Source of the DNA: Bordetella parapertussis
GTDB lineage: Bacteria > Pseudomonadota > Gammaproteobacteria > Burkholderiales > Burkholderiaceae_C
DNA length: 64,000 nucleotides
Assembly: GCA_945870575.1 (NCBI GenBank)
Contig: CAMBSK010000006.1
Span: forward strand, 1-64,000
Reading direction: 5' to 3'
Both the position numbers and the translations under genes were made by a program. The notes below the pieces were generated by a model. That model searched no databases. It was not told the origin of the DNA and was given only the letters and a program-made list of their open reading frames with translations. Position 1 is the stretch's first letter, and each line of letters starts with the position of its first letter. Below, piece by piece: positions 1-2,560 of the stretch.

Positions 1-891
1 GGCCACCACCAACTGGCGTTCGTGTTGTTTGCTGCTGTTGGCGTGGCTGCAATCCACCATCAAACTGGCCGGTAACTTGGCCGCTTGCAGTTCTAGGCAA
101 GCCGCACCCACACTGGCGGCGTCATAGTTGGGCGCTTTGCCGCCGCGCAAAATCACGTGGCAATCTGGGTTGCCTTGGGTTTGCACAATCGCCACCTGCC
201 CGTTTTTATGCACGGACAAAAAATGGTGTCCGCGTGCCGCAGCTTGTATCGCGTCTGTCGCGATTTTGATGTTGCCATCTGTGCCGTTTTTAAAGCCTAT
301 GGGCGCGGACAAACCGGAGGCCAATTCGCGGTGTACTTGGCTCTCAGTTGTGCGGGCACCAATAGCGCCCCAGCTGATCAAGTCACCGATGTACTGGGGT
401 GAGATCACATCTAAAAATTCGCTGCCTGCCGGTACGCCGGCGCGGTTGATCTCGATCAGCAATTGGCGCGCAATGCGCAGGCCTTCGTCAATGCGAAAAC
501 TCTCGTCAAGGTAAGGGTCGTTGATCAAGCCTTTCCAGCCGACCGTGGTGCGCGGTTTCTCAAAATACACGCGCATGACGATTTCCAATGTGTCCTTGTA
601 TTTTTCGCGCTCAACTTGCAAGTGACGCGCATAGTCCAATGCAGCCGCTGGGTCGTGGATAGAGCAAGGGCCCATCACCACCAGCAGGCGGTCGTCCTTG
701 CCGGCCATGATTTTGGCAATGCGCTGGCGCGTATCGCTGATCAGTTTTTCGACGGCCGTTCCGGCAATGGGAAAGAAGCGGATCAAATGTTCGGGTGGCG
801 GCAACACGGTGATGTCCTTGATGCGTTGGTCGTCAGTCTGGCTGGTCTGGTCATCGATCGGTGCATAAGCATCTTTGGGATGGGATTTCAT
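1..891 (-). CDS. aroG: 3-deoxy-7-phosphoheptulonate (DAHP) synthase, class I, 3' end beyond window
   Basis: Condenses phosphoenolpyruvate and erythrose 4-phosphate, the first step of the shikimate pathway, in the cytoplasm. The 297 visible codons carry class I AroF/G/H signatures: MGPCSIHD, RVYFEKPRTTVGWKG, DPYLDESF, EFLDVISPQY, GARTTESQVHRELASG, GFKNGTDG and the HVILRGGK and VDCSHANS segments. The family is about 350 residues, so roughly the last 50 lie outside the window. The ATG at 891 has AGGAG eight bases upstream. The Phe/Tyr-rich attenuator immediately upstream suggests regulation by charged tRNA-Phe/tRNA-Tyr. Which aromatic amino acid inhibits the enzyme cannot be decided from the sequence. 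Confidence 0.95.
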   Translation of the reverse strand, partial: MKSHPKDAYAPIDDQTSQTDDQRIKDITVLPPPEHLIRFFPIAGTAVEKLISDTRQRIAKIMAGKDDRLLVVMGPCSIHDPAAALDYARHLQVEREKYKDTLEIVMRVYFEKPRTTVGWKGLINDPYLDESFRIDEGLRIARQLLIEINRAGVPAGSEFLDVISPQYIGDLISWGAIGARTTESQVHRELASGLSAPIGFKNGTDGNIKIATDAIQAAARGHHFLSVHKNGQVAIVQTQGNPDCHVILRGGKAPNYDAASVGAACLELQAAKLPASLMVDCSHANSSKQHERQLVVA

Positions 892-939
892 GGAAGGCTC
901 CTGGAAGGCTGCAACTGTGAGAAAGACAAGTTTGGGAAC

Positions 940-966
940 AAAAAAAAACCGCCGGAAGTCGGCGGT
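940..966 (-). terminator. Rho-independent terminator of the aroG attenuator
   Basis: On the minus strand, ACCGCCG (966 to 960) pairs with CGGCGGT (954 to 948) around an ACTTC loop, and the T-run reads on to 940 (nine T in all). It lies between the leader-peptide stop and the aroG start, so it would stop transcription before aroG rather than after a gene. Confidence 0.85.
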
Positions 967-1015
967 AGGTTGGGGAGTTCAGAGCGTTGTTTGCGTTCAG
1001 ACCTCTCGACCGCCG
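960..1015 (-). promoter_or_regulatory. Predicted antiterminator pairing of the aroG attenuator
   Basis: CGGCGGT (1015 to 1009), inside the leader-peptide codons, is perfectly complementary to ACCGCCG (966 to 960), which is also the 5' arm of the terminator. After a four-base bulge, AGGT (1004 to 1001) pairs with ACCT (970 to 967), giving 11 base pairs. The two structures exclude each other. A ribosome stalled on the Phe/Tyr codons would leave this segment free; one that reaches the stop codon would cover it. Complementarity is seen directly; function is inferred from classical ribosome-mediated attenuation. Confidence 0.7.
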
Positions 1016-1065
1016 GTGGGGCGTGAGAAATAAAAATAAGCAAAGTGAAACAGCACTGAATTCAT
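997..1065 (-). CDS. Phe/Tyr-rich leader peptide of the aroG attenuator (22 aa)
   Basis: A short frame ATG (1065) to TGA (997) encodes a 22-residue peptide starting MNSVLFHFAYFYFS. Four Phe and two Tyr fall within residues 6-13. It is followed 30 bases later by a terminator hairpin with a T-run, and its last codons form one arm of the alternative antiterminator. This is the arrangement known for pheL and trpL. No convincing Shine-Dalgarno precedes the ATG. tldD ends only 34 bases upstream, so the leader could be translated from a tldD read-through message or from a promoter at the end of tldD. Confidence 0.75.
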   Translation of the reverse strand: MNSVLFHFAYFYFSRPTGGREV

Positions 1066-1072
1066 GGTTCGA

Positions 1073-1081
1073 AATGTAGCA
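1073..1081 (-). promoter_or_regulatory. Possible extended -10 element for aroG leader
   Basis: TGCTACATT on the minus strand matches an extended -10 (TGn plus TACATT). It lies so close to the leader ATG at 1065 that the transcript would start at or within a base or two of it. No good -35 is visible, as expected if the TGn compensates. Tentative. Confidence 0.3.
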
Positions 1082-1099
1082 CAGGCGCTGCGGCCGTTT

Positions 1100-2560
1100 T
1101 CAGGCCGTGCCGCCCACCGTCAAGCCGTCAATCCGCAGGGTGGGTTGGCCAACGCCGACCGGCACGCTTTGACCTTCTTTGCCGCAAGTACCGACGCCGG
1201 GGTCTAGCGCCATGTCGTTACCTATCATGCTCACGCGGGTAAGCGCGTCAGGGCCGTTGCCCACCAGCGTCGCACCTTTGACCGGGTATTTGATTTTTCC
1301 TTTTTCCACCCAATACGCCTGGCTGGCGGAAAACACAAACTTGCCCGAAGTGATGTCCACCTGGCCGCCGCCGAAATTGGTGGCGTACAAACCTTTTTTT
1401 ATGCTGGCAACGATTTCTTCCGGGTGTTTGTCACCGCCCAACATATAAGTATTGGTCATGCGCGGCATGGGTACGTGGGCGTAACTTTCGCGTCTGCCGT
1501 TGCCGGTGGGCGCCACGCCCATCAAGCGTGCATTCATGCTGTCTTGTATGTAAGCTTTCAAGATGCCGTCTTCAATCAGCACATTGCGTTGGCTGGCGTT
1601 GCCTTCATCGTCCACATTAAGTGAGCCGCGACGGTCGGCAATGGTGCCGTCATCCAACACCGTGACGCCTTTGGCTGCTACGCGCTGGCCGATGCGGCCG
1701 CTGAAGGCGCTCGAGCCTTTGCGGTTGAAGTCGCCTTCCAAACCATGGCCAATGGCTTCGTGCAACAAAATGCCAGGCCAACCCGCGCCCAGCACCACGG
1801 TCATTTCACCGGCAGGCGCGGCTTGCGCCTGCAAATTGGTCAAAGCGGCGCCGACTGCCTCGTCCACATAACGGGTTAGGCAATCGGCATCAAAATGCGC
1901 CAGACCGAAGCGGCCACCGCCGCCGGCCGATCCGCTTTCACGGCGGCCTTTTTCTTCCACGATCACGCTGAGCGACAAACGCACCAAGGGCCGTACATCA
2001 GCAGCCAAAGTGCCGTCGGCACGAGCGACCAGCACCACGTCGTATTCGCTGGCCAGACCGGCCATGACTTGCACCACGCGCGGGTCTTTGGCACGCGCCT
2101 GCTGCTCCAAACGTTCAAGCAAATTCACTTTGGCGGTGCTGTCCAAACTGGCGATCGGGTCGTCGTCGCGGTACAGGCTGCGCGCCCCGGCGATGCGACG
2201 CCCGGGCACCTTGGTGCTGGCGTTGTTGCCTGCCGCGGCAATGCTGCGCACCGTGTGGGCCGCGTCCATCAACGAGGCCATGGAAATATCATCTGAATAA
2301 GCGAAAGCAGTTTTTTCGCCGCTGACCGCGCGCACGCCCACACCCTGGTCTATGCTGAACGAACCGGTTTTGACGATGCCCTCTTCCAGGCTCCAGCCCT
2401 CGGATCGGGTGTACTGAAAATACAAATCAGCATCGTCAATGCGGTGCGCGCGTATGGCCGACAAAGCTTGCGTCAAATGGCTTTCATCCAAGCCGTAAGG
2501 CGTCAGCAACAGGCTTTGCGCGATAGCCAGGCGTTCGAGGGTAGGTTCGTGTGCAATCAT
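1100..2560 (-). CDS. tldD: Metalloprotease TldD
   Basis: TldD is the zinc-metalloprotease subunit of the TldD/TldE pair, known to process microcin B17 and CcdA and to act on unfolded peptides. The 486 residues match the family length. The zinc motif HEAIGH is at residues 267-272 (HEAIGHGLEGD), and the long N-terminal modulator-type domain precedes it. The C-terminal CGKEGQSVPVGVGQPTLRI signature is also typical. No tldE/pmbA partner lies in the window; in proteobacteria the two are often unlinked. A weak inverted repeat (CGGCC...GGCCG) surrounds the stop codon but has no T-run. Confidence 0.95.
   Translation of the reverse strand: MIAHEPTLERLAIAQSLLLTPYGLDESHLTQALSAIRAHRIDDADLYFQYTRSEGWSLEEGIVKTGSFSIDQGVGVRAVSGEKTAFAYSDDISMASLMDAAHTVRSIAAAGNNASTKVPGRRIAGARSLYRDDDPIASLDSTAKVNLLERLEQQARAKDPRVVQVMAGLASEYDVVLVARADGTLAADVRPLVRLSLSVIVEEKGRRESGSAGGGGRFGLAHFDADCLTRYVDEAVGAALTNLQAQAAPAGEMTVVLGAGWPGILLHEAIGHGLEGDFNRKGSSAFSGRIGQRVAAKGVTVLDDGTIADRRGSLNVDDEGNASQRNVLIEDGILKAYIQDSMNARLMGVAPTGNGRRESYAHVPMPRMTNTYMLGGDKHPEEIVASIKKGLYATNFGGGQVDITSGKFVFSASQAYWVEKGKIKYPVKGATLVGNGPDALTRVSMIGNDMALDPGVGTCGKEGQSVPVGVGQPTLRIDGLTVGGTA

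Follow-up and report, generated by a model that had tools for sequence, protein, structure and literature searches.

A conserved leader rich in phenylalanine and tyrosine codons as a candidate attenuator of DAHP synthase in Bordetella parapertussis and its relatives

Ribosome-mediated attenuation is a classical mode of control, and attenuators of DAHP synthase genes have been proposed elsewhere, namely in Acholeplasma, Vibrio and Shewanella. In Acholeplasma, the motif uORFC-13-1 found before aroF combines a predicted Phe upstream ORF with a terminator in front of DAHP synthase (PMC8632094). The passages of that paper which concern the motif give 24 representatives, from Acholeplasma and environmental sequence, with a U-run that codes for at least one Phe, and the likeness to the element discussed here is one of description only. 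In Vibrio, aroA-I-alpha(Y)-tyrA is listed in the Merino database as a predicted attenuator (PMC1173090), while for Shewanella 5' RNA motifs are given for aroH and aroF, the latter annotated, with reference to E. coli work from 1980, as an 'attenuator sensing tyr-tRNA' (PMC2659441). These cases belong to other lineages, and the relevant parts of the two papers describe no leader peptide like the present one.

Two further systems are close in design. The E. coli pheL/pheA attenuator has a Phe-rich leader and a terminator before an aromatic biosynthesis gene (PMC11878033), but it differs in that the gene belongs to the Phe branch and not to the common first step, and in that only Phe is read, with no Tyr or Trp. 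In S. meliloti trpL, the attenuator RNA begins with the leader ATG according to the sections of PMC7298713 on this RNA, a property that is reported there and predicted here; the differences are that it reads Trp only, controls the trpE(G) operon and belongs to an alphaproteobacterium. As to protein regulators, TrpR and TyrR are described as conserved in many groups of gammaproteobacteria and absent from other classes (PMC5343134, in the part on these regulators), which raises the question of how the DAHP synthase step is controlled in betaproteobacteria.

Here, we consider the region upstream of a DAHP synthase gene in the window, that is, the whole analysed stretch of 64,000 nucleotides of Bordetella parapertussis (contig CAMBSK010000006.1, positions 1 to 64,000). 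We consider it very probable, at roughly 0.9, that this region is a ribosome-mediated transcription attenuator by which charged tRNA-Phe and tRNA-Tyr, joined by tRNA-Trp in most relatives, would set DAHP synthase. The assignment rests on computation, namely on the parts of the element, their conservation, the fixed link to DAHP synthase, the compensation in the terminator and the conservation of one segment as RNA; from these we infer that the leader is translated, where transcription starts, that tRNA charging is sensed and in which order the stems fold.

No model in Rfam, which includes the T-box among others, matched the element. With all 4227 models, positions 700-1400 of the window gave a best score of 15.3 bits against a cut-off of 56.4, for an unrelated sRNA on the other strand; six relatives gave no match at gathering scores, and no T-box match was found in the window or these relatives. 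Weak matches to sRNAs and to a selenocysteine element in the window were far under the cut-off and were rejected as noise. An open-access literature search, covering few subscription papers, gave no paper on this attenuator among the matches listed, and a search of PMC2965389, PMC4603805, PMC5688073 and PMC7798474, with words that varied by paper, found neither DAHP synthase nor aroG in the text searched.

Leader, putative promoter and competing stems in the window

All parts of the attenuator lie on the minus strand, within the gap between an ORF at 1100..2560, which we take to be tldD, and the DAHP synthase gene at 1..891. The latter starts at 891 and runs past the window end, and its first 297 residues are of the AroF/G/H type (class I), with a TIGR00034 match of 448.5 bits against a cut-off of 173.2 and an additional match to PF00793. 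Ahead of its ATG there is an AGGAG resembling a Shine-Dalgarno (SD) site at 898..902, on the same strand.

The leader ORF occupies 997..1065 of the minus strand, with the ATG at 1065-1063 and the TGA at 999-997, and consists of 22 codons, MNSVLFHFAYFYFSRPTGGREV, and a stop. Its control codons 6-13 (1027..1050, minus strand) read Phe-His-Phe-Ala-Tyr-Phe-Tyr-Phe, an aromatic block that is kept in relatives, and the four Phe and two Tyr in eight codons given in the initial annotation are borne out in both coordinates and counts. A search of NCBIfam and Pfam returned no family for the leader peptide. An extended -10 element, TGTGCTACATT, is located at 1073..1083 (minus strand), 7 nt before the leader ATG, and transcription would therefore be expected to start at the leader ATG or no more than about 2 nt from it. 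A generic sigma-70 promoter scan of this region gave no sites, and there is no good -35 hexamer.

The terminator is formed by segment 3, ACCGCCG (960..966), a loop ACTTC, and segment 4, CGGCGGT (948..954), and leads, again on the minus strand, into a run of nine T (940..948), the first of which is also the last base of the stem. This hairpin, given in the initial annotation, was recovered by a terminator scan for which 1.1 sites of this kind are expected in each shuffled version of the region. Segment 3 is common to terminator and antiterminator, as indicated by folds, scan and covariation counts. Its other partner, segment 2, is a CGGCGGT at 1009..1015 (minus strand) and lies within the leader codons, as had been proposed. 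When segments 2 and 3 are folded alone, seven contiguous pairs form between 1015-1009 and 966-960, with an unremarkable stability (z −0.89). The proposed 11-bp antiterminator is thus retained in its seven contiguous pairs; the further four, AGGT at 1004-1001 with ACCT at 970-967, are complementary in sequence, but they need a 4-nt bulge and are absent from the minimum-energy fold.

It had also been suggested that the design has no separate pause hairpin. The window fold argues otherwise, since a 1:2 hairpin is predicted in which segment 1 (1025..1031, minus strand) pairs with a 3' arm GAGAGGT (1001..1007, minus strand), that is, 1031-1025 with 1007-1001, and in which 1023-1020 pair with 1014-1011; pair counts on 61 sequences, given below, point the same way. 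As the hairpin ties up four bases of segment 2, the element can be described as a four-segment attenuator. The whole 136-nt leader folds as 1:2 plus 3:4 at −37.2 kcal/mol (z −3.16), and none of 200 shuffles is as stable. The locus has a leader ORF with codons for the end products, a terminator before the gene and a conserved antiterminator on the 5' arm of the terminator, as in classical ribosome-mediated attenuators, and a 1:2 hairpin competing with the antiterminator is present with moderate support.

The position of segment 2 inside the leader codons, seen in the initial annotation as a compact design, is shared with E. coli ilvL and leuL. The best complement of the terminator 5' arm found inside the leader has 8 nt in ilvL and 6 nt in leuL, and its distance from the stop codon is 23 and 25 nt, respectively. 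The ilvL leader also mixes several related amino acids, as here; these are branched-chain systems and are likened by arm position only. In E. coli pheA the competing arm is usually placed after the stop codon, and a complement scan of the pheL leader did not identify it.

Conservation and occurrence of the element

As relatives, the best 80 of at least 589 confirmed DAHP synthase loci from named genomes were taken, by likeness to the locus of the window. The leader rule applied to them asks for an ORF of 10-60 codons in which some stretch of 10 codons contains at least four F/Y/W, and for a hairpin with a T run behind the ORF. With the window included, 61 of 81 upstream regions conform, whereas among 3504 control windows, which overlap one another and were cut from both strands of these loci, 8 do so. 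The 20 misses include Polynucleobacter (L026, L027, L031), Cupriavidus copies (L032, L033) and other lineages; L005, whose 40 nt of upstream sequence are too few for a judgement, is counted among them and as leader-less on the tree. The initial annotation had asked whether relatives lack the aromatic frame or compensatory changes in the stems, and what was found is that the 61 regions carry the element, that the terminator compensates and that segment 2 is kept as RNA. This conserved element lends support, at the level of sequence, to the idea that a betaproteobacterium controls its DAHP synthase by attenuation at Phe and Tyr codons.

A covariance model was built from the 61 leader sequences and used with a cut-off of E ≤ 0.001 and strict filters; the matched genomes partly hold model-building sequences (at least G001 and G005). 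In the order of Limnohabitans (Burkholderiales in NCBI), 78 of 300 genomes match, once each, and 77 of the 78 matches are beside DAHP synthase, the exception being L183 (E 3.4e-4). The order of Dyella (Lysobacterales in NCBI) gave one match in each of 30 among 151 genomes, all 30 beside DAHP synthase. At model matches the leader lies upstream of DAHP synthase on the same strand. In a class-level sample, 9 of 369 genomes match, 7 of the 9 beside DAHP synthase, and 6 of these 7 are also within the two order samples. A re-search of 40 of the 222 match-less genomes with laxer filters yielded a single match (1/40, E 0.0097), far from DAHP synthase. AroF/G/H genes are present in 24 of these 40 genomes (32 matches), and the leader rule identified nothing in 30 fetched AroF/G/H upstream regions of match-less genomes. 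Of the 78 element-bearing genomes 40 were checked, and all 40 have AroF/G/H, in one copy (23) or two (17). The genome of L033, one of the misses above, has a strong model match at another DAHP synthase gene (L084, 65.7% identity). From the genome searches, the re-search and the copy counts it follows that the element is common yet limited to certain lineages, and that it marks one DAHP synthase copy per genome.

The loci collected in this way number 194, of which 171 bear a leader, a proportion that is not a frequency because most added loci came from the model. Removal of 12 exact duplicates from the 171 detected leaders leaves 159 non-redundant ones, and the arm tables, which leave out L079 and L170, refer to 157. 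Three loci (L172, L181, L182) match the model and fail the leader rule; they are counted as leader-bearing in the tree and in the neighbour counts. Model matches away from DAHP synthase (L088, L089, L123, L124, L183 and L199, E 3.4e-4 to 0.087) were taken as chance, and a search for DAHP synthase around L123, L124 and L183 found none.

Some individual loci deserve mention in their own right. L181:575-709 is a decayed version, in which the antiterminator core and the terminator are kept and the leader has a single Phe codon. At L079:1478-1587 a second FYF-containing ORF is followed by AACCGCTGA/TCAGCGGTT and a T run, away from DAHP synthase (E 0.0085). The leader at L023:2838-2966 has His between the aromatics (RYHFWHFHIQH), and its antiterminator core is GGCGC, not GGCGG. 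Finally, L071, a MAG labelled Anaerolineae, has an aromatic-rich ORF, MSRYFSFFSWYGYFAAGQVERAVVRPRDV, before DAHP synthase, with a GC-rich hairpin and no long T run; it may be an attenuator of another kind, or the contig may have been mis-binned.

We now consider what the leaders encode. All 159 contain Phe, 153 contain Tyr and 104 contain Trp, where it should be noted that the leader rule itself asks for F/Y/W. The combinations are Phe, Tyr and Trp in 103, Phe and Tyr in 50, Phe alone in 5, and Phe and Trp in 1; the window leader, with Phe and Tyr and no Trp, is of the second kind. The Trp codons in most relatives are an addition to the initial annotation, as is the promoter element next to the leader start. 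In 82 of 157 leaders the last five codons of the aromatic block hold all three aromatics. The order and number of aromatic residues vary, and on a DAHP synthase tree (FastTree, 212 tips) the presence of Trp changes at least 23 times.

The start of the leader has features of its own. The pattern TGnTAnnnT is found 6-9 nt ahead of 61 of 159 leader starts, against a background of 8 in 35,659 nt further upstream, and a looser -10 is found at the same distance in 98 of 159. For 40 of 159 the best -10-like site is instead 22-39 nt upstream of the leader, and these include, by eye, Burkholderia and Oxalobacteraceae. Out of 159 leaders, only 4 have an SD-like word before the start; within a subset of 136, such a word precedes 92 DAHP synthase genes, whose start was set at the most distant in-frame ATG, and a single leader. 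A -10 element almost touching the leader start together with the rarity of SD-like words suggests that the mRNA of such leaders may be leaderless, and for the window itself the close extended -10 and the missing SD word make this probable, though no -35 was found.

Of the 157 leaders, 148 carry the core of segment 2, GGCGG, without a mismatch, where dinucleotide shuffles would give 25.6; it lies +8 to +17 past the last aromatic codon in 143 of them all (5.5 expected). The core falls in reading phase 2, 0 or 1 in 110, 38 and 9 leaders, respectively, and on the DAHP synthase tree this phase has shifted at least 15 times. Since the core remains exact despite these changes of phase, segment 2 is conserved as RNA, and this is, as judged from sequence comparison, the strongest single argument for the antiterminator.

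Pair counts were made on the 60 distinct rows of the alignment of 61 sequences, with 500 shuffles. For the terminator 99.8% of the cells are paired, three of seven pairs show double changes (at one pair G-C 36, A-U 21 and U-A 2), and the covariation score is reached by no shuffle; it is also the one structure that RNAalifold predicts on the alignment. For the antiterminator 81.9% of the cells are paired, a value that is lowered by a shift of one position in several aligned rows, and its covariation score is likewise reached by none of the 500 shuffles. One pair has 18 double-changed cells (C-G 22, U-A 16, U-G 3, A-U 2 and 17 unpaired), but the single pair with double changes and the 5 further pair types are no more than shuffles give (477 and 406 of 500 reach these counts). 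For the 1:2 hairpin the outer helix is 83.4% paired (3 of 500 shuffles reach this), four of five pairs show double changes (25 of 500), and the score is reached by 11 of 500.

In the 157 leaders, the 3:4 pairs are present at position a in 157, at b in 146 and at c in 122 (reached by 288 of 5000 permutations). For 2:3, position b is paired in 115 of 157 against a permutation mean of 90.2 (0 of 5000 reach), c in 117 (73 of 5000) and d in 73 (0 of 5000), and the outer flanking position a, in 33 of 157, is no better than permutation; all these counts are inflated because the leaders are related. When independent pairs are counted on the tree, 4.8 of 6 agree in direction for 3:4 and none is opposed (median p 0.0625), and for 2:3 the values are 3.1 in agreement, 0.3 opposed and 2.6 without difference out of 6, which is not significant. 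The covariation proper of the antiterminator is weaker than its sequence conservation.

In 50 leader-bearing loci tldD is directly upstream, with a median gap of 314.5 nt between both matches, and in 111 no tldD match is found there, with leader and terminator kept. The tldD–DAHP synthase order is also present at 10 leader-less loci (L026, L027, L031, L035, L080, L204, L211, L213, L214 and L216), with gaps of 34-176 nt. The junction is thus kept with and without the leader, which means that the leader was gained or lost there, and the two sets of 50 and 10 loci provide a natural comparison. On the DAHP synthase tree the presence of the leader changes at least 10 times, with gain and loss indistinguishable.

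Proposed switch and alternative explanations

The three ribosome states were modelled by folding the 157 leaders. For a ribosome stalled at the last aromatic codon, the RNA up to segment 3 was folded with masking to 10 nt past that codon, or to the core where this is nearer, and 2:3 forms in 155 of 157, a result that is partly built in as segment 2 was chosen by its core. In 108 of 157 leaders the distance from the last aromatic codon to the start of the core is 11 nt or more, which is about how far a stalled ribosome reaches downstream. If the ribosome sits on the stop codon, all 157 leaders form 3:4; without a ribosome 148 form both 1:2 and 3:4. When segment 4 is added to the folded RNA, 2:3 has the lowest energy in only 11 of 157, the window not being one of them, so that antitermination would have to be decided kinetically, while the RNA is made. 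Classical attenuators likewise decide antitermination during transcription.

On this basis the following sequence of events can be envisaged. Transcription would begin at or near the leader ATG, and ribosomes would load on the leader without an SD site. When the aromatic tRNAs are charged, the ribosome would reach the stop codon and cover segment 2, or leave and allow 1:2 to form; 3:4 would then fold and transcription would end near 940. When they are uncharged, the ribosome would stall at the late aromatic codons Tyr10-Phe13 and cover segment 1, leaving segment 2 free, so that 2:3 could fold before segment 4 is made and the polymerase could read into DAHP synthase. The earlier suggestion that the ribosome at the stop codon itself hides the antiterminator arm applies to the window, where the arm ends 9 nt before the stop, and to the 93 of 157 leaders in which the core ends no more than 17 nt from the stop; in the other 64 the core is further upstream. 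In leaders where masking at the stop codon fails, the 1:2 hairpin may serve instead. This hairpin exceeds shuffled sequence in stability only to a moderate degree, with a median z of −1.12, 83 of 157 below −1 and 34 of 157 above 0.

Three other explanations were weighed against the attenuator. The short terminated RNA of roughly 125 nt, or the peptide, could be the main product and act in trans, attenuation being merely its source. There are parallels for this, as S. meliloti trpL is a leaderless attenuator RNA whose products rnTrpL and peTrpL have trans effects (PMC7298713, in the sections on these products) and B. cenocepacia makes many short 5'UTR RNAs, 82 of them being tabulated in the part of PMC5688073 that deals with them. 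In the present family, however, little is conserved outside the aromatic block and the stems and nothing points to targets, and a trans-acting product would be compatible with attenuation too; we consider a main role in trans very improbable. Also very improbable, in our judgement, is that the aromatic-rich peptide arrests the ribosome in response to a free amino acid and not to tRNA charging. The leader peptide TnaC works by stalling the ribosome on a free amino acid, and the overall make-up of the present peptides, with their aromatic block, is conserved. Arrest of this kind is difficult to reconcile with the stretch after the block, which occurs in the three phases given above (110/38/9, at least 15 changes) such that its residues are not kept, or with the at least 23 appearances and disappearances of Trp and the variable order and number of the aromatics.

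The hairpin might also be the plain end of the tldD transcript, with a non-regulatory leader and a separate downstream promoter for DAHP synthase, as the 50 loci with tldD directly upstream would permit. This explanation is hardly tenable, because the 111 loci without such a tldD match keep leader and terminator, because leader and segment 2 would then not be conserved, and because no such terminator was found in Polynucleobacter, which keep the tldD–DAHP synthase order.

Returning to the attenuator, such a switch would fit the observation that in R. solanacearum deletion of either aroG1 or aroG2 raises expression of its counterpart 10- to 20-fold, for which the passage of PMC6379268 that reports it gives no mechanism. 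In a wider perspective, the chances seem to us evenly balanced that the element is one ancient switch common to the whole family, which in many Burkholderiales and in some members of Dyella's order takes the place of TyrR and TrpR at DAHP synthase, with one leader that reads all three tRNAs and an RNA that starts at the leader ATG and has no 5' untranslated region. If this is true, the first ribosome and the polymerase would start together from +1, and the apparent lack of a 5' untranslated region would offer a clean system for the coupling between them. The attenuator could be named as an RNA family. As DAHP synthase opens the shikimate pathway, a conserved attenuator responsive to two or three aromatic tRNAs at once would answer, for a sizeable group, how this step is controlled in betaproteobacteria.
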